Assembly: GCA_012032575.1 (NCBI GenBank) | Contig: JAAUSP010000369.1 | Span: 1 to 7,554, forward strand | Reading direction: 5' to 3' | DNA length: 7,554 nt | Source of the DNA: Anaerolineales bacterium | GTDB taxonomy: Bacteria > Chloroflexota > Anaerolineae > 4572-78 > J111 | Shown: in pieces, positions 120-7,553 of the stretch | Position numbering within the stretch: the first letter of the stretch is position 1 | How the letters are laid out: each line of letters opens with the position of its first letter | Position numbers and translations under genes: made by a program | The notes under the pieces: model-generated | Seen by the model: the letters and a program-made list of their open reading frames with translations, nothing else | The model's database searches: none | Told to the model about the DNA's origin: nothing

Positions 120-416
120 CTACTGTTCCCCATCCACCGGCAGCGACGATTCAATATCCAACAAAATTGATTCGTCATCCATCACGCTGAAGGTGGCCTG
201 GATGATCTCTTCGGGCAGGCCGCTGGCTCGCTTCTCGTTGACCCAAACTTCCTTCAGCAGTTCCATCAACTTTTGCTCGTTGTTCCAACCGGCTCCACCC
301 AATTGAATGAGCTTGGCCGTGACCAGTTCGCCGGCTCCGTTGCCCTCTTTCAGGTGGGTCAACTCCTTGCGCAGCCCGCGCTGGAGCAGCGAGGTCATGC
401 GCCGCAACTTTTTATT
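120..416 (-). other. Unrecognised C-terminal helical domain
   Basis: About 98 residues after the low-complexity linker. Predicted helices include KKLRRMTSLLQRGLRKELTH and NNEQKLMELLKEVWVNEKRA, followed by LPEEIIQATFSVMDDESI and an acidic end. It has no nucleotide-binding motif and no membrane segment. EccC proteins usually end at or soon after D3, so this tail may be an extra feature of this lineage. No function assigned. Confidence 0.55.
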
Positions 417-1136
417 ATCCTGCGGTGAGGCCGCCGGGGCCTGCGTCCCGTTAGTTTCTCCAGGTGTTGACCAGGCCGCCCGCTGCTTGGGGTATTTGGC
501 CTTGATTTTTTCCACCCACCAATCCAGGGCCTGGCCTGGCTGCTGCCCGTCCTCTTCGCCATCCGACGCGCTCGCCGGGATGCCTTTGCCCATATAAGGC
601 GTCGCCACCTGGAGCATGGTCGGCTGGCCGGAGCGAACAATGAAACCCCGCCCGATGGACAGTTCTTTGCCGCGTATCTCCGGCGGCGTGCGCGAGACCC
701 GCAGCGTTTCCACCGCCTGGGCGGTGCGCAAGCCCACCCCATAGTTGGACGCCTGCACCCGCCGCCGCAAATCGCTGATGCCGCTGTCGAGGGTGCCGCC
801 GATAATGAAATGCAATCCGTCACGCCCGAAGCGACGGGCCACGCCGGCCAGTTCTTTGGGCAGGTCCCGGATGCGCTCGATTTCTTCGCTCAGGTCGTCG
901 TAATTGTCAATGATCACAAACAGTTCGTAGCCGGGGGCTTGATTGGCCAGCACCTCGCCTTCGCGCTTTAAGTTGGCCAGCAGCCCCTCCATCTGTTCCA
1001 CCTCGGAGATGGCTGCCAGGACGTGCGGCAGTTCGTCCAGCTTGTGTTTGCCGTCGTATTCCATAAATTTGCGCTGCATGTCCACCAGCACCAGCCGGAC
1101 CTGATCGGGCGAGTAGCGATAGGCCAGCGACAGCAC
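120..1136 (-). CDS. Reading-frame fragment 8: terminal ATPase module D3, linker and C-terminal helical domain (true 3' end)
   Basis: This piece carries the real stop codon (TAG at 120-122). The first residue at 1136 is an internal codon; the correct frame extends upstream through the D3 P-loop to about 1170. D3 features: LAYRYSPDQVRLVLVDMQRKF, LPHVLAAISEVEQMEGLLANL, ELFVIIDNYDDL (residues 71-82) and LHFIIGGT near 109-115, ending at GRGFIVRSGQPTMLQVATPY. In EccC this is the domain that recognises the secreted partner. Residues about 190-240 are a low-complexity linker (DGEEDGQQPGQAL and TQAPAASPQD). Residues 241-338 are a predicted helical domain (LLQRGLRKEL, NNEQKLMELLKEVW) with an acidic end, which I do not recognise. 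Confidence 0.9.
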   Translation of the reverse strand: MLSLAYRYSPDQVRLVLVDMQRKFMEYDGKHKLDELPHVLAAISEVEQMEGLLANLKREGEVLANQAPGYELFVIIDNYDDLSEEIERIRDLPKELAGVARRFGRDGLHFIIGGTLDSGISDLRRRVQASNYGVGLRTAQAVETLRVSRTPPEIRGKELSIGRGFIVRSGQPTMLQVATPYMGKGIPASASDGEEDGQQPGQALDWWVEKIKAKYPKQRAAWSTPGETNGTQAPAASPQDNKKLRRMTSLLQRGLRKELTHLKEGNGAGELVTAKLIQLGGAGWNNEQKLMELLKEVWVNEKRASGLPEEIIQATFSVMDDESILLDIESSLPVDGEQ

Positions 1137-4100
1137 CCAGTTGTACAGCGTCGTCGTCTTGCCGGAAGCGGCGGCCCGACCACGGTGAAGTGCGGCCCCA
1201 ACCGTTTGAGGTCGAACAGGGCCGGGCGCAGACTGCCGTCCTGGCCCAATACCGCCTGAACCCGCTGCGGCCGGGCCGGGCCGACTTCCTCCAACACTTC
1301 CTGTAAAGGCACAATTTCGGGCAAAACCGTTACCGGGTCCGGCTGGCTGCGCCAGGTCATAGTTTCAAGCTGCTGGCGCATGTGCCGGGCCAGCAAACGC
1401 AGTTCGTCCCCTTCGGGCAGGGTATCGCGGCCATCCTCGTCCTGGAAAAGGCCGACCGGCAGGGCGATATGGAACAACAGCGGCCGTTTGCCCACCCGGA
1501 TGTACCCGCGCCCGGCGGTGTCCTCAATCTCAATTGCCCCCCGCCCAACGATGTCCATGTAGCGGTCGGTATTGCTCTGCTTGAAGGTGATCCGCTCGCC
1601 AAACAGGTTGTAGAATTTGCTGGGCATGTTGTTGGGCACGTTAGCCGTAATCACAAAAGTGACGCCCATACTCAACGAACGGCGCACCAGCGGGACAATG
1701 GTCGTTTCGACCAGGATTTCGTAGTTTTCCTGCAATTCGGCAAAGTTATCAATCATCACTACCACGGCGGGCAGGGCCTGATCGGGGAAGCGGGCGTTAA
1801 AATCGTACAGGTTGCTGGAGTCGGCGTTGCTCAGAATTTGCTGCCGCTCCTCGATCATTTTTTCCAGCTTTTCCAGCAAGCGCTGCAAGCGCTCCTCGTA
1901 AGTTTCCTCGTCGGCGTAGATGACCGCGCCACGTGGGGCAGCTCTTCCAGGCTGCGGAAGTTGCGCCCACCCAAGTCCAGCACATAAGCGTGAAACTCGT
2001 CGGGCGAGTGGGTAGCGGCCAGGCTGACCAGCAGCGAGCGCAGGAACGAGGTTTTCGCCCCAGCCGGAGTCGCCAAAACGGCCAGGTGATAGCGGCTCAA
2101 ATCAAAGTACAGCGGCACCTGGATAGCCTCCGCCGGGTTGTCGAGCAGGCCCATCACCGGGCGCATGGCCGCCTTGCGCCAGTCCACCCCCGGCCAGAGC
2201 GCCTCGGTGTCGCCGTTGAGCCAATCGCTCACCGTAGGAACCAGCACAAAGGTGCAGTTTTTCTGGGCGTCGTGAATGGGCGATTGCAGGCTGAACTGGG
2301 CCGGCAGGAAGTTGGGCCAGGGCTTGGGGGCCATTTGCCCGTTGACCAGTTCGGTGGACAGCTTGACCACCGCATCAAACAGCTTGGGCGTATCCTCGCC
2401 GGTCGGGACCGCCAGCGGGGGACGATCCGGCCACAGGGCGGCCACTTCCCGGTCGTCGGGCTGGTTTTCGTCCGGTGTAGGAAACCTGGATGAGTTCGAG
2501 ATTTTCGTTGCCCACCTGGATGTAGCCGCGCCCCGGCATGCCGTTGGGCAAAAAAGCGGCGTCGGGCGCACGCAGCATCTCGCGGCTGGTGTCCACCTGT
2601 TCCACCCGCAAACAGATGCGGAATTTGATATTGGCCCGCATCTGGTCCGATACGCCCTTGGGTCGCTGCGAGGCCAGGATCAGATTGACCCCCTGCGCCC
2701 GGCCCACGCGGGTGATGCTCTCCAACTCGGCCCGGTATTCGGGGTTATCGTCAATCATTTCGGCGTACTCGTCAATGATGATGAACAGGTGCGGGTAAGG
2801 TTCGCGGGTCAGGTGCAGCCCCTTGGCCCGGTACTCGATAATGTCTTTGGTCAGGGTTTCGGCGTTGAGGGCCTGGCGGCGGCGGATTTCGGCGTTGATG
2901 GCGGTGAACATGCGGTTGACGGCGGCCTTGTTCAGGTTGGTCACAATGTCCACCACGTGCGGCAGCTTTTCAAAGGGTTTAAAAGCCCCGCCGCCTTTGT
3001 AATCCACCAGTACAAAGTTCAAAATAGCCGGCGACTGGTACACGGCCAGCCCGACCAGCATGGTCATCAACATTTCCGATTTACCAGACCCCGTGCCACC
3101 GGCAATCATACCATGCACGCCGTCAGTTTTGGCCGAGAGGTGCAGGGCGCGTTTGCGGTTGCCGGAGGTGATGCCAAGAACGGCCTCCAGCCAGTCGGCG
3201 TGTTGGGCCGAGCCGGTGACAGCCCATTTTTGGCGGATGGCTTCTTTTAGCTCAACCAGGAAACCCGTTTCCTGATTGATACCAAACACTTCGGCCAGCA
3301 CTTGCCGGTAAGAGGACGATTTGGGCAGGGCATCAATCCGCAGCGGCTCCCGGCCCGACCAGGCCTTGCGGCCCAGATCGTGCATCAGTTGGCCCAACTG
3401 CCGGATCTGGGCGATTTCCGCTTTGAGTTGGCCCTGCTCGTCAAACTCACCCACAGCAAAAGCAATCTGGAACTCCAGCGGCTGGCGGCCCGCTTTGACG
3501 TAGCCCCGGCCCGCAATCTCGTCAATTTCGGCGGGGGTGCCGCCGACAATGGAGCGATAGTCGCCCGAATCGGACAGGCGCAGGGTCAGTCGCTCGGTGA
3601 AGAGGCTGTAGAGCTTGCTCGACAGCTCGTTGAGGCGGTTGACCGAGATGACAAAGTGCAGGCCGTAGGCTTTGGCCTGGCGGACTAATAACACAAAGGC
3701 TTCGAGCAGGTTGTTCTCGCTGTCCTTCTTGGAGGTGTCGCCAAAGGTTTCGATGAACTCCGCGAAGTTATCAATAACCACCAGAATGGCCGGCTCGATC
3801 CGGTCGGGGTGGCTGATGTTGTAGTCATACAGCGTCGAGACGCCGACCTCGCTGAAAAGCTTCTTGCGCTCGTCCACGATGTCGTTCAACTCGCGCAGAA
3901 TTTGCTGCACCCGCTCCTCGTAGCCACGCTCGTCGGGCATGATAATCGTCCCGACATGCGGCAGGGCGTTCAGTACTTCCAGGTTACGCCCGCCCAGGTC
4001 GAAGATGTGGGCGTGAAACTCGGCCGGCGAGTGGGTGGCGGCCAGGCTGACCACCAGCGAGCGCATAAAAGTCGTTTTGCCCCACCCTGACGCGCCAAAA

Positions 4101-7100
4101 AGGACCACGTGGCCCTTGGTGACATCAATCACCAGGGGTAACTGGCGGGCATTGTAGGGGTCATCGGCCAGCCCGGCGATGGCCCGCATGGCCGTTTTGG
4201 TCCAATCCATGCCGGGCCAGGCCACTTTGCCGGTAAACCAGCGCCGGATAAAGGGGTTCAGGCTGGTGATGCGCTCGAATTGGCCCAGAGTCATCAGAGG
4301 TTCATACTCTTTATCCACGTAGGCTTCAACCAGCGGGCTGGACATGGTCAGCTTGGTCGGTAGGAAGGGTGGCCAGGGCGTGCGCGGAGCTTGGCCCTGG
4401 AGCAGTTCGTTACACAAGTCTACCACCACATCGTAAAACTTGGCCTGCTTGCCGCCCTCGCGCAGCTCGGCGTAATCGTAGTTTTCGCCGGTATAGGCCA
4501 TCTGGATCAGCTCGATATTTTCGTTGCCGACCTGCAAATAACCGCGCCCGGCATGCCGTTGGGCAAAAAGGCGGCGTCGGAGCGGCGCAGCATTTCACGG
4601 CTGGTGTCTACCTGCTCAACCCGCAGGCAGATGCGGAATTTGATATTGGCCCGCATCTGGTCCGACACGCCCGTAGGCCGCTGCGAAGCCAACAACAGGT
4701 TGACCCCCTGCGCCCGGCCCACGCGGGTGATGCTGTCCAGTTCGTCTCTGAATTCAGGATTGTCGGTAATCATTTCGGCGTATTCGTCAATGATGATGTA
4801 CAGGTGGGGGTACGGCTCGTTGGTCAAATGCAGCCCCTTAGCCCGGTACTCGACAATATCTTTGGTGCCGGTATCGGCGTTGAGCTTCTGGCGGCGCTGC
4901 ATTTCGGCGTTGATGGCGGTGAAAAAGCGCTTGACCGCCGACTTGTTGAGGTTGGTCACAATATCAATGCAGTGGGGCAAATCGCGGAAGGGCTGGAACG
5001 CGCCCCCGCCTTTGTAGTCCACCAGGACAAAGTTCAACACGCTGGGGTCGTAATTCAGGGCCAGGCCGACAATTAAGGTCATCAACAACTCGGATTTGCC
5101 GGCCCCGGTCCCGCCGGCGACCATGCCATGCACGCCGTCTTTTTTGGCCTCGAAGTGCATTTCGCGCAGGCGGTTGCCCGACACCACCCCAATGGTCACT
5201 TTGAGCCAGTCGGCCAGTTCCGGATTAAGACTGTCCTGCCAATTTTGGGCGGTGCTCAGCCTCAATTGATCCACGAAGGTTTCGTTCAACTCCAGGTTGA
5301 GTTTGCGGGCCAGGATTTGCTTGAACAGGATCGAGCGGGGCAGGGCGTCCACCCGTACCGGCTTTTTGTAAACATAGCCGGTGCTGGTAATAAAATCCTG
5401 CATGCTCTGGGCGTACTGTTCCAACTCTTTGGTTTCGTTGGCGTCGCGGGCCAGATCAATCGGCTGGGCAATCTGAAAAGTGAGGGGCAGGTGGCCTATT
5501 TTTACATAACCCCGGCCCCGGTATATCGCCAATATCGCCCACCTGCCCGCCGACGATGGTCCGGTACTCGGTCGGGTCGGCCAGTTTGAGGGTCAGCCGT
5601 TCGGTGAAGAGGCTTTGCAACTGGCTCGACAGGACATTGGGTTGGCTGACCGTAATCACAAAATGAATGCCATACGGTTTGGCCTGCCGCGCCAGTCCGA
5701 CAAACTTATCAAAAACCGTTTCGACATCGCTCTCGGCGTCGCCGCCAAAGGTTTCTTTGAACTCGATGAAGTTGTCAATACAGACCACAATCGCCGGAAG
5801 GGGGGTAGTGGGATGGGCATTGTTGTACTTGTACAAATCGGGCACGCCGGCATTGTAAAGTATCGTTTTGCGCTGCTCGACGATATCGTCCAGTTCGCGC
5901 AGGAGTTGCTCGACCCGCTCCTCGTAGCCTTCGGCATCGGGGATGATGACCGAGCCGACGTGAGGCAGGTTTTCCAGCACACCGAGGTTGCGCCCGCCCA
6001 AATCCAGCACATAAACGTGCAGATGGTTGGGCGAATGAGTGGCGGTGAGGCTGACCACCAACGTGCGAATAAAGGTAGTTTTACCCCAGCCCGACGCACC
6101 AAAGAGAGAGACGTGGCCGCGCGGCAAATCAATCACCAGGGGCAACTGCTTGGCCGCATAGGGGTTGTCCACCAGACCGACTACCGGGCGCAAAGCGTAA
6201 TTCTCCCAATCCTGCTGTTCCAGCCAGCCGACTTCGCCGTTCAGCCATTTGTTGACCCCCGGATTCAGGGTCAGGGCGATATCCGGCTTGAGGCCGAGCA
6301 TGATTTTGTCCACGTCAATCAGGTACTCGTCGGAAGTGACGGCAGGGATGGTTTGATCCGGCGATACTAATAATTCGGACAGCGACAGGCGGTTGGGCAG
6401 AAAGTCGGGCCAGGGCGCGCGCTGCTTCTCGATGCCGTGCTCGCGGGCCATTTTGCCGAGCATGGTTACGATGGCCTTGTACAGTTCGGGCGGCTCCTGG
6501 TCCTGCGAGGCATCGTAAAGCTCGTTCCGATCCGGCCAGATGACCCTGGCCTGGGGGGTACGGTTGGGATCAATGACCTTGTCGCCGGTGTAGGCACTCT
6601 GAATCAATTCGATTTCGTCATTACCCACCTGCAAATAGCCCCGACCGGGAATATCGGTCGGCAGAAAGGCGGCGTCGGAACGGCGCAGCATTTCGCGGCT
6701 TTCGCCCGACGTTTCCACCCGCAGGCAGATGCGGAACTTGATATTGGAGCGCATCTGGTCGGTGACGCCGCTGGGTCGCTGGGCCGCCAGAATGAGCGAA
6801 ACGCCCTGCGCCCGGCCCACGCGGGTGATACTCTCCAGTTGGCCTTTGAACTCGGCCCGGTCGGCGATCATTTCGGCAAATTCATCAATGATGATGAACA
6901 GGTAGGGGTAGGGGTGATAGTTTCGTGCAGCCCCTTCTGGCGGTAGTCCACAATGTTTTTGGTCTCGGTTTCGGCGTTGAGGGCCTGACGGCGCTGCATT
7001 TCCGATTGGATGGCGGTGAACATGCGGGTCACGCCTTCGCCTTGCAGGTTGGTGATGATGTCCACACAGTGGGGCAGGTCCTCAAACCCTTTGAACGCGC

Positions 7101-7553
7101 CGCCGCCTTTGTAATCCACCAGCACAAAATTGAGCACGGTCGGATCGTAGGTGACGGACAGGCCGGTGATGAGCGAAATCAACAATTCCGACTTGCCGGA
7201 GCCGGTGCTGCCGGCCACCATGCCGTGAACCCCGTCCCGCTTGGCCGAAAAAACCATCGTGCGGGGTTTGTTGCCGGACATCATGCCGATTTTGCAGCGC
7301 AGCCAGTTGGCGTACTGCGGCTTGACGCTATCCTGCCATTTTTCCAGGTATCGGCCTGAAGGTCCAGGATTGATTTATAGCCCATGAAGTCGAGGAAGGG
7401 CACGGTGCGGGTCAGGTTAGCCCCAAAGCTCTCGCGGATGCGCAACTGGGCCAACTGTTGGGTCAGGATGGTCATTTCGTCGGGCCGGGTGACGTAATTG
7501 GCCTCGCCGACATAACGGAAGGAGTTGACGCCCACCTCGGAATACCGAAAATG
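120..7553 (-). CDS. Giant EccC/EssC-like FtsK/SpoIIIE ATPase, seven ATPase modules (reconstructed; 5' end off window; seven frameshifts)
   Basis: This is the whole coding stretch read as one gene. It encodes a type VII secretion motor ATPase, expected to sit at the membrane and energise export of WXG100-like helical-hairpin substrates. Modules in order are D1-D2-D1-D2-D1-D2-D3, then a linker and a helical tail. Family evidence: three copies of VDYKGGGAF plus ASQRPxGV and DQMRxNIKFRICLRVE in the D1 modules; GASGWGKTTF, LDLGGRN and LPHVG in the D2 modules; and a D3 with VDMQRKF and IIDNYDDL, matching EccC D3 layout. Eight reading frames are joined across seven one-base-scale frameshifts. Applying the repairs (+1,+1,-1,+1,-1 or +2,+1,+1) gives a length divisible by three. 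The reading is open to the right edge, so the true start and any N-terminal membrane or FHA part lie outside. Usual EccC/EssC proteins are about 1,300-1,500 residues; this fragment alone is about 2,478. Sure of the family, less sure whether the gene is intact in the organism. Confidence 0.88.
594..1219 (-). other. ATPase module D3 (EccC terminal-domain type)
   Basis: The restored P-loop is GPPASGKTTT at about 1155-1177, followed by VRLVLVDMQRKF, and by IIDNYDDL at about 891-905. In EccC D3 the matching positions are a 'GDxxSGKT' loop, 'VDxRR' and 'DDYD'. The VDYKGG and DLGGRN signatures of D1 and D2 are absent, so this is a distinct single terminal module and not a seventh repeat copy. Confidence 0.8.
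968..1888 (-). CDS. Reading-frame fragment 7: second half of module D2-C, linker and start of terminal module D3
   Basis: The first ATG lies inside the helical YEERLQRLLEKLEKMIEE segment of D2-C; one frame upstream of the repair gives ADEETYEER. D2-C continues with VVVMIDNFAEL at 1742-1765 (Asp-Asn Walker B), FVITANVPNNMPSKFYNLFGERITF and GRGYIRVGKRPLLFHIALP. A linker follows (VTVLPEIVPLQEVLEEV), which matches the 'LP..V.L.E' segment before D3 in EccC proteins. Then LFDLKRLGPHFTVVGPP opens the D3 P-loop. The frame breaks inside that P-loop at about 1164-1171, so the remaining residues (LPARRRRCTTG onward) are out of frame. Confidence 0.87.
   Translation of the reverse strand: MQRLLEKLEKMIEERQQILSNADSSNLYDFNARFPDQALPAVVVMIDNFAELQENYEILVETTIVPLVRRSLSMGVTFVITANVPNNMPSKFYNLFGERITFKQSNTDRYMDIVGRGAIEIEDTAGRGYIRVGKRPLLFHIALPVGLFQDEDGRDTLPEGDELRLLARHMRQQLETMTWRSQPDPVTVLPEIVPLQEVLEEVGPARPQRVQAVLGQDGSLRPALFDLKRLGPHFTVVGPPLPARRRRCTTGCCRWPIATRPIRSGWCWWTCSANLWNTTANTSWTNCRTSWQPSPRWNRWRGCWPT
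1164..1171 (-). other. Frameshift 7: one G missing inside the D3 P-loop
   Basis: The coding strand reads CCGCCGCTTCC. Restoring CCGCCGGCTTCC gives VVGPPASGKTTTLYNWVL, a standard P-loop. Without it neither frame has a complete Walker A. Confidence 0.87.
1463..2118 (-). other. ATPase module D2-C (degenerate P-loop and Asn Walker B)
   Basis: Third copy of the D2 module. The P-loop position reads ATPAGAKT at 2050-2073, losing the first Gly and the Gly before Lys while keeping Lys-Thr. Walker B is VVVMIDNF at 1742-1765. DLGGRNF and LPHV are kept. It probably binds nucleotide weakly or not at all and may be structural. Confidence 0.85.
1855..2571 (-). CDS. Reading-frame fragment 6: linker and first half of degenerate ATPase module D2-C
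   Basis: The first 33 residues are out of frame; the meaningful sequence begins at DENQPDDREV near 2472. A linker with ALWPDRPPL, KLFDAVVKLSTELVNGQ and WPNFLPAQF aligns with the same linker after D1-A and D1-B. D2-C begins near residue 150. Its P-loop position reads ATPAGAKT (2050-2073), against GASGWGKT in the other two D2 modules: the first Gly and the Gly before Lys are both Ala. The rest is well kept: FLRSLLVSLAATHSPDEF, AYVLDLGGRNF and ELPHV. The frame is lost at about 1925-1930; the final residues after LPHVA are out of frame. Confidence 0.85.
   Translation of the reverse strand: MRPTPLFCPTACRGAATSRWATKISNSSRFPTPDENQPDDREVAALWPDRPPLAVPTGEDTPKLFDAVVKLSTELVNGQMAPKPWPNFLPAQFSLQSPIHDAQKNCTFVLVPTVSDWLNGDTEALWPGVDWRKAAMRPVMGLLDNPAEAIQVPLYFDLSRYHLAVLATPAGAKTSFLRSLLVSLAATHSPDEFHAYVLDLGGRNFRSLEELPHVARSSTPTRKLTRSACSACWKSWKK
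1925..1932 (-). other. Frameshift 6: one G missing after GTG
   Basis: One extra G restores LPHVGAVIYADEETYEER, matching LPHVGSVIIPDAEGYEER of D2-A and LPHVGTIIMPDERGYEER of D2-B. This joins fragments 6 and 7. Confidence 0.87.
2375..4537 (-). CDS. Reading-frame fragment 5: ATPase modules D2-B and D1-C
   Basis: This is the longest uninterrupted piece. Its first ATG falls inside GRGYLQVGNEN, so it is not a gene start. Residues 1-130 are the D1-B tail and linker (YTGENYDYAE, WPPFLPTKL, WFTGKVAW). D2-B has GASGWGKT at 4073-4096, FHAHIFDLGGRNL, ALPHVGTII, the YEERVQQILRELNDIV helix, ILVVIDNF at 3764-3787 and FTERLTLRL. It ends with GRGYVKAGRQPLEFQIA. After a linker, D1-C shows GGTGSGKS at 3077-3100, VDYKGGGAF, FIIIDEYAEM at 2756-2785, LASQRPKGV and KFRICLRVE. 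The frame is lost at about 2464-2477, after ELIQVSYTG; the last 31 residues are out of frame. This piece shows directly that a D2 module is followed by a second D1 without any frameshift in between. Confidence 0.92.
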   Translation of the reverse strand: MQVGNENIELIQMAYTGENYDYAELREGGKQAKFYDVVVDLCNELLQGQAPRTPWPPFLPTKLTMSSPLVEAYVDKEYEPLMTLGQFERITSLNPFIRRWFTGKVAWPGMDWTKTAMRAIAGLADDPYNARQLPLVIDVTKGHVVLFGASGWGKTTFMRSLVVSLAATHSPAEFHAHIFDLGGRNLEVLNALPHVGTIIMPDERGYEERVQQILRELNDIVDERKKLFSEVGVSTLYDYNISHPDRIEPAILVVIDNFAEFIETFGDTSKKDSENNLLEAFVLLVRQAKAYGLHFVISVNRLNELSSKLYSLFTERLTLRLSDSGDYRSIVGGTPAEIDEIAGRGYVKAGRQPLEFQIAFAVGEFDEQGQLKAEIAQIRQLGQLMHDLGRKAWSGREPLRIDALPKSSSYRQVLAEVFGINQETGFLVELKEAIRQKWAVTGSAQHADWLEAVLGITSGNRKRALHLSAKTDGVHGMIAGGTGSGKSEMLMTMLVGLAVYQSPAILNFVLVDYKGGGAFKPFEKLPHVVDIVTNLNKAAVNRMFTAINAEIRRRQALNAETLTKDIIEYRAKGLHLTREPYPHLFIIIDEYAEMIDDNPEYRAELESITRVGRAQGVNLILASQRPKGVSDQMRANIKFRICLRVEQVDTSREMLRAPDAAFLPNGMPGRGYIQVGNENLELIQVSYTGRKPARRPGSGRPVAGSSPAGGPDRRGYAQAV
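2464..2477 (-). other. Frameshift 5: net loss of two bases or gain of one
   Basis: SYTG in one frame must join DENQPDD in another. Two extra G give YTGDENQ, matching YTGDKV and YTGENY at the other two copies. Removing one base gives YTDENQ. Both restore the frame; the paralogues favour the first. Confidence 0.72.
2474..3145 (-). other. ATPase module D1-C (canonical)
   Basis: Third copy of the D1 module. Walker A is GGTGSGKS at 3077-3100 and Walker B is FIIIDEYAEM at 2756-2785. VDYKGGGAF, LASQRPKGV, KFRICLRVE and DAAFLPNGMPGRGY are all present in one unbroken frame. All residues expected for hydrolysis are visible. Confidence 0.92.
3464..4141 (-). other. ATPase module D2-B (Walker B Glu replaced by Asn)
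   Basis: Second copy of the D2 module, uninterrupted here. Walker A is GASGWGKT at 4073-4096, followed by IFDLGGRNL, LPHVGTII and Walker B ILVVIDNF at 3764-3787. It ends in GRGYVKAGRQPLEFQIA. It is close to D2-A in the P-loop (both GASGWGKTTF) and in the Trp within the loop. Confidence 0.9.
4500..5160 (-). other. ATPase module D1-B (canonical)
   Basis: Second copy of the D1 module. Walker A is GGTGAGKS at 5092-5115 and Walker B is IIIDEYAEM at 4771-4797, with VDYKGGGAF, LASQRPTGV and KFRICLRVE present. By hand alignment it matches D1-C at about four of five residues over roughly 195 positions, so these two copies look like the most recent duplication product. Confidence 0.9.
4507..5532 (-). 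CDS. Reading-frame fragment 4: linker and ATPase module D1-B
   Basis: The frame picks up at GRGYVKIGHLPLTFQIA, the end of module D2-A; its first four residues (MAIY) are out of frame. Residues about 22-124 are a linker. The linker ends in NWQDSLNPELADWL and a GVVSGN turn. D1-B then shows GGTGAGKS at 5092-5115, VLNFVLVDYKGGGAF, FTAINAEMQRRQ, IIIDEYAEM (Walker B with intact Asp-Glu) at 4771-4797, ITRVGRAQGVNLLLASQRP and DQMRANIKFRICLRVE. It closes with DAAFLPNGMPG near 4550. Everything after that (AVICRSATKISS) is out of frame because one base is missing at about 4542-4549. All residues expected for hydrolysis appear present. Confidence 0.9.
   Translation of the reverse strand: MAIYRGRGYVKIGHLPLTFQIAQPIDLARDANETKELEQYAQSMQDFITSTGYVYKKPVRVDALPRSILFKQILARKLNLELNETFVDQLRLSTAQNWQDSLNPELADWLKVTIGVVSGNRLREMHFEAKKDGVHGMVAGGTGAGKSELLMTLIVGLALNYDPSVLNFVLVDYKGGGAFQPFRDLPHCIDIVTNLNKSAVKRFFTAINAEMQRRQKLNADTGTKDIVEYRAKGLHLTNEPYPHLYIIIDEYAEMITDNPEFRDELDSITRVGRAQGVNLLLASQRPTGVSDQMRANIKFRICLRVEQVDTSREMLRRSDAAFLPNGMPGAVICRSATKISS
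4542..4549 (-). other. Frameshift 4: one C missing in GGGCGCGG
   Basis: Restoring GGCCGCGGT gives NGMPGRGYLQVGNEN, identical in form to NGMPGRGYIQVGNEN in D1-C. This joins fragments 4 and 5. Confidence 0.87.
5456..6871 (-). CDS. Reading-frame fragment 3: end of ATPase module D1-A plus nearly all of module D2-A
   Basis: The ATG at 6871 is the Met of the Walker B region (EFAEM-IAD) and not a start. Residues 1-95 complete D1-A with ITRVGRAQGV, AAQRPSGV, DQMRSNIKFRICLRVE, DAAFLP and GRGYLQVG. Residues about 96-240 form the inter-domain linker, including WPDFLPNRL and WLNGEVGW. D2-A starts near residue 243: GASGWGKT at 6077-6100, THSPNHLHVYVLDLGGRNL, NLPHVGSVI, the helical EGYEERVEQLLRELDDI, IVVCIDNF at 5768-5791, FVITVSQPN and LFTERLTLKL. 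The Walker B acidic pair is Asp-Asn, not Asp-Glu. An extra base at 5510-5521 ends the frame in GDIGDIPG; the remaining residues up to the stop at 5456 are out of frame. Confidence 0.9.
   Translation of the reverse strand: MIADRAEFKGQLESITRVGRAQGVSLILAAQRPSGVTDQMRSNIKFRICLRVETSGESREMLRRSDAAFLPTDIPGRGYLQVGNDEIELIQSAYTGDKVIDPNRTPQARVIWPDRNELYDASQDQEPPELYKAIVTMLGKMAREHGIEKQRAPWPDFLPNRLSLSELLVSPDQTIPAVTSDEYLIDVDKIMLGLKPDIALTLNPGVNKWLNGEVGWLEQQDWENYALRPVVGLVDNPYAAKQLPLVIDLPRGHVSLFGASGWGKTTFIRTLVVSLTATHSPNHLHVYVLDLGGRNLGVLENLPHVGSVIIPDAEGYEERVEQLLRELDDIVEQRKTILYNAGVPDLYKYNNAHPTTPLPAIVVCIDNFIEFKETFGGDAESDVETVFDKFVGLARQAKPYGIHFVITVSQPNVLSSQLQSLFTERLTLKLADPTEYRTIVGGQVGDIGDIPGPGLCKNRPPAPHFSDCPAD
5470..6145 (-). 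other. ATPase module D2-A (Walker B Glu replaced by Asn)
   Basis: It begins at LPLVIDLPRGHVSLF. Walker A is GASGWGKT at 6077-6100, and VLDLGGRNL and LPHVGSV match EccC D2 (where the usual form is DFGGGG…LPHVG). The Walker B strand is IVVCIDNF at 5768-5791, with Asn where the catalytic Glu would be. This suggests ATP binding without fast hydrolysis, as known for the later domains of EccC. Confidence 0.85.
5510..5521 (-). other. Frameshift 3: one extra G or C in a G/C run
   Basis: The coding strand reads CCGGGGCCGGGG. Removing one base restores IPGRGYVKIG, matching IAGRGYVKAG in D2-B and TAGRGYIRVG in D2-C. This is the only clear insertion among the seven. Confidence 0.8.
6602..7257 (-). other. 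ATPase module D1-A (canonical FtsK/SpoIIIE-type)
   Basis: Walker A GSTGSGKS lies at 7189-7212. VDYKGGGAF follows about 30 residues later. Walker B, restored across the frameshift, reads LFIIIDEFAEM at about 6868-6900, then AAQRPSGV and KFRICLRVE. The Lys, Asp and Glu expected for ATP hydrolysis are all present after repair. This copy differs most from the other two D1 modules, for example LQGEGVTRMFTAIQ against LNKSAVKRFFTAIN. Confidence 0.87.
6868..7284 (-). CDS. Reading-frame fragment 2: N-terminal half of ATPase module D1-A
   Basis: This carries the first P-loop, GSTGSGKS at 7189-7212, followed by LNFVLVDYKGGGAF, the motif typical of the first ATPase domain of type VII secretion motors, and the helical MFTAIQSEMQRRQALNAET segment. 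The ATG at 7284 is internal. The true frame extends upstream to about 7343 through KWQDSVKPQYANWL, which aligns with NWQDSLNPELADWL in module D1-B. At the 3' end the frame is lost near 6905-6914, just before Walker B. The last residues (TPTCSSSLMNLPK) are out of frame and should read TPYPYLFIIIDEFAEM. Alone this fragment would lack Walker B and could not be an active ATPase. Confidence 0.85.
   Translation of the reverse strand: MMSGNKPRTMVFSAKRDGVHGMVAGSTGSGKSELLISLITGLSVTYDPTVLNFVLVDYKGGGAFKGFEDLPHCVDIITNLQGEGVTRMFTAIQSEMQRRQALNAETETKNIVDYRQKGLHETITPTPTCSSSLMNLPK
6905..6914 (-). other. Frameshift 2: one C missing in a CCCC run
   Basis: The coding strand has two CCCC runs separated by TA. 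One extra C restores TPYPYLFIIIDEFAEM, which aligns with EPYPHLYIIIDEYAEM of D1-B. Either run could be the site. Confidence 0.85.
7281..7553 (-). CDS. Reading-frame fragment 1: segment before the first ATPase module (partial, open at right edge)
   Basis: This frame enters from the right edge with no start codon required. A GTG at 7533-7535 could be taken as a start, but in-frame codons continue upstream (…FRYSEVGVNSFRYV), so it is probably internal. The segment contains RPDEMTILTQQLAQLRI, which resembles the stretch in EccC proteins that precedes D1 (a conserved 'LAxLRL' helix followed by a small domain). It lacks the GRGYVKxGxxPLxFQIA ending found between later modules, so it probably belongs to the genuine N-terminal region and not to another D2 repeat. 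The frame is meaningful only down to about 7343. Its last residues (after DTWKN) are out of frame because one A is missing from an A run. The next fragment continues the protein. Confidence 0.75.
   Translation of the reverse strand, partial: HFRYSEVGVNSFRYVGEANYVTRPDEMTILTQQLAQLRIRESFGANLTRTVPFLDFMGYKSILDLQADTWKNGRIASSRSTPTGCAAKSA
7339..7343 (-). other. Frameshift 1: one A missing in an A run
   Basis: The coding strand has five A where six restore the frame: DTWKKWQDSVKPQYANWL joins fragment 1 to fragment 2 and matches the paralogous NWQDSLNPELADWL. Run-length error is the simplest cause. Confidence 0.8.

Follow-up and report, generated by a model that had tools for sequence, protein, structure and literature searches.

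The gene carried by the window, that is, the whole 7,554-nucleotide stretch of Anaerolineales DNA analyzed here, encodes a protein that is very probably a type VII secretion motor. The combined module, tree and neighborhood data suggest that it probably represents a membrane-anchored Chloroflexota homolog of EccC/EssC whose D1-D2 pair was multiplied into three copies in tandem. In the open-access literature searched, which leaves subscription papers and preprints mostly outside, no description of a motor with two or more D1-D2 pairs was found.

The motor gene in the window and its modules

On its minus strand, the window carries about 2483 of the roughly 2922 codons of the motor gene, namely its 3′ part (123..7553). 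The stop codon is near position 120 and the 5′ end is outside the window; relatives carry about 440 further N-terminal residues, which comprise a pair of transmembrane (TM) segments and D0. Between 7553 and 123 the reading frame shifts seven times, and the read-through, with X at the joins, is 2483 residues long. The initial annotation had read the order D1-D2-D1-D2-D1-D2-D3 over 594..7257. Profiles and motifs recover all seven modules, in that order and on the minus strand. The span itself lies within the gene but is too narrow, as the gene runs on to its stop on one side and past the edge of the window on the other. The features are:

123..7553, minus strand: motor gene, 3′ part, with seven frameshifts (reading frames, read-through, alignment to protein P0001)
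6578..7329 (approximate), minus strand: first D1, with GSTGSGKS, VDYKGGG and IIIDE (profiles and motifs)
5392..6220 (approximate), minus strand: first D2, with GASGWGKT, DLGGRN and CIDNF (profiles and motifs)
4448..5229 (approximate), minus strand: second D1, with GGTGAGKS, VDYKGGG and IIIDE (profiles and motifs; counterpart in locus L001 compared with structures)
3398..4210 (approximate), minus strand: second D2, with GASGWGKT, DLGGRN and VIDNF (profiles and motifs)
2437..3214 (approximate), minus strand: third D1, with GGTGSGKS, VDYKGGG and IIIDE (profiles and motifs)
1388..2184 (approximate), minus strand: third D2, with DLGGRN and MIDNF, Walker A garbled (profiles and motifs; L001 counterpart compared with structures)
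699..1300 (approximate), minus strand: D3, with SGKTT, VDMQRKF and IIDNYDDL (profiles and motifs; L001 counterpart compared with structures)
123..698, minus strand: C-terminal tail of the motor, to the stop (reading frames, read-through, alignment to P0001)

The nearest protein among the best 120 of 2343 relatives, P0001, is intact (2922 aa) and is identical to the window read-through at 2381 of 2473 aligned residues (96%). The nearest locus, L001 from an Anaerolineales MAG, has an open frame of 2937 codons and shares 92.05% DNA identity with the window (565 mismatches); 7 of the 13 indels between the two fall within runs of at least three of one base. Since the frame of L001 is open, the frameshifts belong to the window alone. 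Because of the indels in homopolymer runs, they would fit sequencing error; they may also reflect recent decay of the window gene. The third-D2 Walker A reads TPAGAKTS in the window and GDSGWGKTS in P0001, and a third D2 with a degenerate Walker A was rejected, as the oddity is private to the window. Positions 1-122 are intergenic and contain GGCCTCGCAATGAC two times; neither this motif nor its complement matched in the related loci compared.

The modules are D1, D2 and D3 of EccC/EssC. Pfam FtsK_SpoIIIE matches seven of eight window pieces, six with E values from 4e-49 to 3e-5 and one weakly (0.009, below the cut-off), while the first window piece gave no match to this family. EccC/EssC models likewise match seven of the eight pieces, with NCBIfam EssC reaching 1e-139; with the intact P0001, these matches exclude a chance resemblance. 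In P0001, NCBIfam EccCa extends over residues 26-768 (TM, D0 and first D1) and EccCb over 2237-2761 (last D2 and D3). The whole-protein EccCa/EccCb scores, which are summed over the repeats, are above the curated cut-offs; when individual stretches of four genomes are searched, the best EccCb match has 246.6 bits, under the model cut-off of 346.55. In a comparison with EccC of Thermomonospora curvata, the scores of the second D1 of L001 are 138 bits against D1, 66 against D2 and 12 against D3, and the last D2 together with D3 aligns to D2-D3 of the same protein. Moreover, a predicted D1-D2-D1 model tracks the chain path in the T. curvata EccC crystal (PDB 4nh0).

Architecture, distribution and active sites

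In P0001, TM segments at 36-61 and 63-85 are followed by D0, a degenerate ATPase domain, and the chain has eight P-loop-type modules with D0 included. The relatives discussed here are 196 proteins pooled from three protein searches (best 120 each, about 8000 candidates scored), and the module profiles were made from 112 full-length proteins of clade I only (for the clades, see below), with which other clades score lower. By these profiles, the order D0-(D1-D2)x3-D3 is present in 146 of the 196 proteins among the matches listed. It is retained in relatives only about 31% identical to a query, and is found on contigs as long as 14 Mb. Of 14 loci obtained in a genome scan, 10 have the seven-module gene complete in one open frame. 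The frameshifted state of the window gene could raise the suspicion that the tandem copies are an artefact of assembly or annotation. Intact relatives rule this out: they have three pairs, not the single pair that independent assemblies might have shown, and the copies inside one protein are far from identical, so that the chance of an artefact is practically nil. By a simple hydropathy scan of 144 proteins of at least 2800 aa, 115 have at least two N-terminal TM segments, 26 have one and 3 have none.

Nonstandard forms make up 50 of the 196 listed proteins. Seventeen of these are D1-D2 alone and ten are apparently cut, including P0156, P0160 and P0161, for which a two-pair form is also possible. 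The two-pair form is seen in 4 of the 196 (P0157-P0159 and P0195) and the one-pair form in 3 (P0163 and P0174 by strict call, and P0164 likewise with a split D0); in one, P0032, the third D2 is uncalled. A four-pair form is absent among the 196 listed proteins, of which the longest has 3196 aa, and the length limits of two of the protein searches admitted four-pair forms of about 3600 aa. Two candidates from genome scans were rejected: a five-module intermediate in genome G234 (open frame of 1809 codons), as the part examined is D0-D1-D2-D3, and a 4981-codon frame in G668, where the motor is an ordinary seven-module frame of 2946 aa.

Some relatives depart from this series in other ways. P0085 (2888 aa) and P0148 (3075 aa) carry N-terminal EAD1 and ATPase_2 fusions, respectively, and both read D2-(D1-D2)x3-D3 without a TM or D0 call. 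These two look like soluble proteins of the conflict type that have taken over the expanded motor, variants on which the published FtsK-type ATPase domains of conflict systems bear (PMC7159879, PMC8195603). P0161 (1752 aa) has an N-terminal caspase domain followed by D1-D2-D1-D2, and is perhaps cut. D1 alone is doubled in 12 proteins (P0165-P0173, P0175, P0176 and P0189), which read D0-D1-D1-D2-D3, one without a D0 call; an FHA domain is listed for most of these type VII motors, and one is named Pseudonocardiaceae. P0162 (1806 aa, Saccharopolyspora) has four D1-like modules, two of them with a standard Walker A, and then D2 and D3. The D0-D1-D2-D3 series of P0174 (1686 aa) is preceded by a protein kinase domain.

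Among 400 Chloroflexota genomes, no fewer than 12 have the seven-module form. Matches at 1e-120, counts that take in one-pair kin and fragments, occur in at least 30 of 396 genomes in the class of G001 and in at least 21 of 158 in the class of G004. All these genome counts are lower bounds, with at most two candidates scored per genome. For five of the 12 genomes with the seven-module form, a second frame, of 1329-1465 codons, is listed whose matches resemble those of an ordinary motor. The canonical Chloroflexota EccC-like loci (L027-L044) read D0-D1-D2-D3 in 17 of 18 cases, L030 being split. WXG100 proteins and type VII toxins were already known in Chloroflexi (PMC3935865, PMC4010439, PMC3482391, PMC10765036).

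A census of active-site residues took in seven-module sequences from clade I (167), clade II (2) and clade III (12), with identical copies removed and close ones kept. Wherever aligned in this census, all D1 copies retain the Walker A Lys and the Walker B Asp and Glu. The D1 Arg-finger position was placed by alignment with the finger of FtsK; this presumed finger is R in 167, 164 and 159 of the 167 clade-I sequences (first, second and third D1). For the three D2 copies of clade I, the Walker A Lys is kept in 167, 167 and 157 of 167 and the Asp in 167, 166 and 167. The position of the catalytic Glu is instead Asn in 158, 157 and 158 of 167; a first D2 with Glu is found once in 167. The D2 finger position is Arg in 159, 167 and 152 of 167, and D3 has Gly at the Arg-finger position in 163 of 167. 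Since canonical Chloroflexota D2 modules have Arg at the finger position in 7 of 9 cases, the D2 Arg is inherited, and it was rejected as a discriminating signature of a mixed ring. Published work places the active site in D1 and describes both D2 and D3 as degenerate modules with a regulatory role (PMC11154593).

Origin of the three pairs

The first trees comprised 83 D1 and 80 D2 modules. They set the expanded family apart from canonical modules, with support of 100/99 for D1, where the bootstrap had not settled, and 96/89 for D2. One long row, the D2c of P0121 (the protein of L026), was placed among canonical D2 modules in the first D2 tree, and P0121 was omitted from later trees. In AU tests on the first trees, holding all D1a together was rejected (p 5e-96), as was holding all D2c together with P0121 left free (p 0.0004). 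The later D1 and D2 trees have 71 rows each from more genomes, with nine short spurious rows (five D1, four D2) excluded; the clades are the same with or without these rows. Bootstrapping had not settled in the later D2 tree, nor in an earlier D1 run on a larger sample. The canonical Chloroflexota proteins form a separate branch of the D1 tree (100/100).

In both the D1 and the D2 tree, the modules of the seven-module proteins fall into three clades, a result that is new. Clade I holds P0001 and most others, including the two-pair proteins; clade II consists of P0147 and L097, and clade III of P0149, P0152, P0154, L098, L101 and L103. Within clades I, II and III, D1b and D1c group against D1a (98/97, 100/97 and 100/97), and D2a and D2b group against D2c (100/97, 99/97 and 95/83). 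From these groupings, it is as if the inner D2-D1 block had been copied last in each clade. The two-pair proteins of clade I look like the step preceding the three-pair form in that clade, since their second D2 groups with D2c (100/99).

A single-copy tree was made from the N-terminus with D0, plus D3, of 34 proteins. Here the sister of clade I is the one-pair L107 (100/99) and that of clade II the one-pair L108 (95/99); clade III is supported at 100/100, and its sister is not settled by this tree. The position of P0164 varies among trees. The AU groups were picked after the trees had been seen. With this post hoc choice, the tests reject a single clade uniting every seven-module protein (p 4e-6; 6e-5 in an earlier run) and a union of clades I and II (p 0.002; 0.004 earlier). 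They also reject clades I+III (p 0.023; 0.026 earlier) and II+III (p 0.013; 0.039 earlier), but weakly.

The simplest reading, which we consider probable, is that there were three separate amplifications, each reaching three pairs. The alternative is one old triplication, after which the copies were homogenized within the clades and losses restored the one-pair state. In P0147, L097 and P0149, D1b and D1c pair by protein (99-100% bootstrap), which shows that copies are able to converge or to be duplicated anew, and the recurrence of the same inner pattern in all three clades also fits a single event. However, the copies stay separate by position through the radiation of clade I, as do the D2 copies of clade III, and a single triplication with losses would require homogenization in each clade prior to its radiation. 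Together with the one-pair proteins nearest to clades I and II and the rejection of a common clade, this makes one old triplication rather unlikely. If three lineages did end at three pairs, selection on length or layer number, not drift, would be implied. The apparent threefold origin of the tripling hints that the number three matters to the working of the motor.

Gene neighborhood, proposed motor working and known systems

The genes near the motor encode WXG100, ubiquitin-like/FHA, kinase, phosphatase and VWA-FHA proteins. Pfam WXG100 matches at 4e-15 and 3e-12 at L001 and at 4e-9 at L011, and WXG100 matches were found in all nine genomes examined for them. An iterated profile detected four small WXG100-like genes upstream in eight of the nine clade-I loci with at least 5 kb of upstream DNA; the ninth, L010, has long WXG100 forms only. 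The same four small genes are present at three of six one-pair loci (L107, L109 and L110), and the extra pairs are for this reason not tied to a visible extra part. The stretches flanking clade II, clade III and one-pair motors are short. In them, no WXG100 gene was found at L097 (clade II), L098-L100 (clade III) or the one-pair loci L105 and L108, and only long WXG100 forms at L101-L103 (clade III). G113 and G643 have 19 and 13 WXG100 matches, mostly in frames of 340-520 codons dispersed over the genome, and these scattered proteins are probably secreted by the system as its substrates.

At L001 and L011, Pfam identified a kinase, a vWA protein and a PPM phosphatase, the phosphatase of L001 being a cut fragment below the Pfam cut-off. 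Elsewhere the genes were identified by iterated profiles, which lump two kinase families together and likewise ubiquitin-FHA with VWA-FHA; not every locus shows every gene. The ubiquitin-like fold was recognized in a predicted model of the ubiquitin-like/FHA protein, for which Foldseek returned single ubiquitin-like chains at ranks 30, 31, 37 and 50, and the VIA list gave FHA matches, with YukD and EccD absent from it. A candidate for an EspG-like chaperone is a conserved ORF of about 260-280 aa present in some loci, for which Pfam gave no match. EssB/YukC (PF10140) was found in none of the nine genomes, with a positive B. subtilis control, and EccB (PF05108) in none of the nine, the control genomes likewise being without a match. 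FHA (PF00498) is absent from the precomputed Pfam domains of P0001, in which the first TM segment begins at residue 36. The locus is very probably of type VII and, by its neighboring genes, most like T7SSc. That the protein instead pumps DNA could be argued from its module superfamily, which includes FtsK and TcpA, and from the FtsK/SpoIIIE source names. This is very improbable, as EccC/EssC models outscore FtsK in P0001 (1531.8 and 1011.6 against 143.3 bits) and WXG100 genes adjoin the motor gene.

For EssC, stacked D1 and D2 rings have been proposed and assembly needs D2 (PMC9436818); for EccC, D1 and D2 pockets bind linkers and auto-inhibit, with six EccC copies per complex (PMC6954902). 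By extension of this published stacking, three D1-D2 pairs might give three pairs of layers. Each chain would run from the TM pair through D0 and (D1-D2)x3 to D3, and six chains would meet at the membrane, as in other type VII systems. Every D1 layer would hydrolyze ATP, while every D2 layer would hold ATP without hydrolysis, serving assembly and restraint of the adjoining D1. The single D3 at the far end would read a WXG100-type substrate. This would lengthen the motor, giving it three power layers that act in series and a single entry end. The arrangement that we favor, if only tentatively, is that of stacked rings in a motor anchored to the membrane. Of the extended stack with one substrate-reading end suggested in the initial annotation, the identity and order of the modules are thus observed, and the longer stacked motor keeps this tentative standing.

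The boldest reading, given the repeated stop at three pairs, is that the six D1/D2 modules of one polypeptide form a pseudo-hexamer in which hydrolyzing and ATP-holding sites alternate, with D3 as the reader. Dynein makes a ring from one chain, and alternate ring subunits are found in F1-ATPase. Three pairs provide exactly six ring-type modules, the count recurs in three clades with nothing beyond it in the listed proteins, and D2 combines the Walker A Lys with Arg at the finger position while lacking the Glu. If true, such a ring would be a covalent counterpart of alternating F1-type rings among secretion motors, one on which selection converged three times from one-pair motors. The predicted D1-D2-D1 model, however, follows the chain of T. 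curvata EccC, an ordinary three-module motor, and the D2 Arg does not discriminate. Two-pair proteins also occur, and one TM pair per chain suits six chains per pore better; we regard the single-chain ring, with selection converging on it three times, as unlikely.

Two further readings concern the extra pairs. A neutral ratchet, in which unequal crossing-over creates tandem pairs that then diverge and come to depend on one another with no benefit, would lead one to expect the closeness of D1b to D1c and of D2a to D2b seen in all three clades, as if the inner block had been copied last. The equal end point in three clades, with nothing past three pairs in the proteins listed, makes this quite unlikely. 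Docking or regulatory copies, which would offer WXG100 partners additional pockets or extend the brake instead of adding power layers, would be in keeping with the linker-binding EccC pockets (PMC6954902) and with the upstream set of four small WXG100 genes in clade I. This is more doubtful still, as the complete hydrolysis set is retained in all three D1 modules and the four WXG100 genes also accompany one-pair motors. Type VII motors have been described as D0-D1-D2-D3 chains. A natural series in which the number of D1-D2 pairs rises from one to three, in part within loci that share their neighbors, and whose three-pair form was probably reached three times, makes D1-D2 cooperation directly testable, with stacked rings, chain restraint and substrate-triggered multimerization as the options.

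Comparison with known systems places the motor as follows. FtsK/SpoIIIE and TcpA share the motor fold of each module; they have one motor module per chain, and their cargo is DNA. The canonical Chloroflexota EccC-like proteins share D0-D1-D2-D3, but with one pair and on their separate branch of the D1 tree. Like EccC (T7SSa) and EssC (T7SSb), e.g., T. curvata EccC, the motor has a TM pair, D0, an active D1, D2 and D3, with homology module by module and a predicted D1-D2-D1 that follows the 4nh0 chain. It differs in that the D1-D2 pair is present three times and not once (2922 aa in P0001 compared with 1391-1392 in EccC5 chains), and is for this reason filed as a variant and not as an ordinary member. 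EssC, moreover, has two FHA domains (PMC10765036), whereas none is among the precomputed domains of P0001; this FHA-less N-terminus and the missing EssB/YukC set the system apart from T7SSb. T7SSc (TscA-G) of Bacillota was described by Garrett, Higginson and Palmer in 2024, in work that defined T7SSc-j, with four NTPase domains in each motor (PMC11217815). Shared with T7SSc are an FHA-less motor, WXG100, a ubiquitin-like protein, a kinase, a vWA protein and a PPM phosphatase in one locus. In contrast to the four NTPase domains of the T7SSc motor (PMC11217815), there are eight here with D0 included; FHA is moreover found fused to the ubiquitin-like protein and as part of the VWA proteins. The string "Chlorofl" is absent from the available portion of the PMC11217815 text, and the motors discussed here widen type VII diversity past the published T7SSa-j to Chloroflexota.
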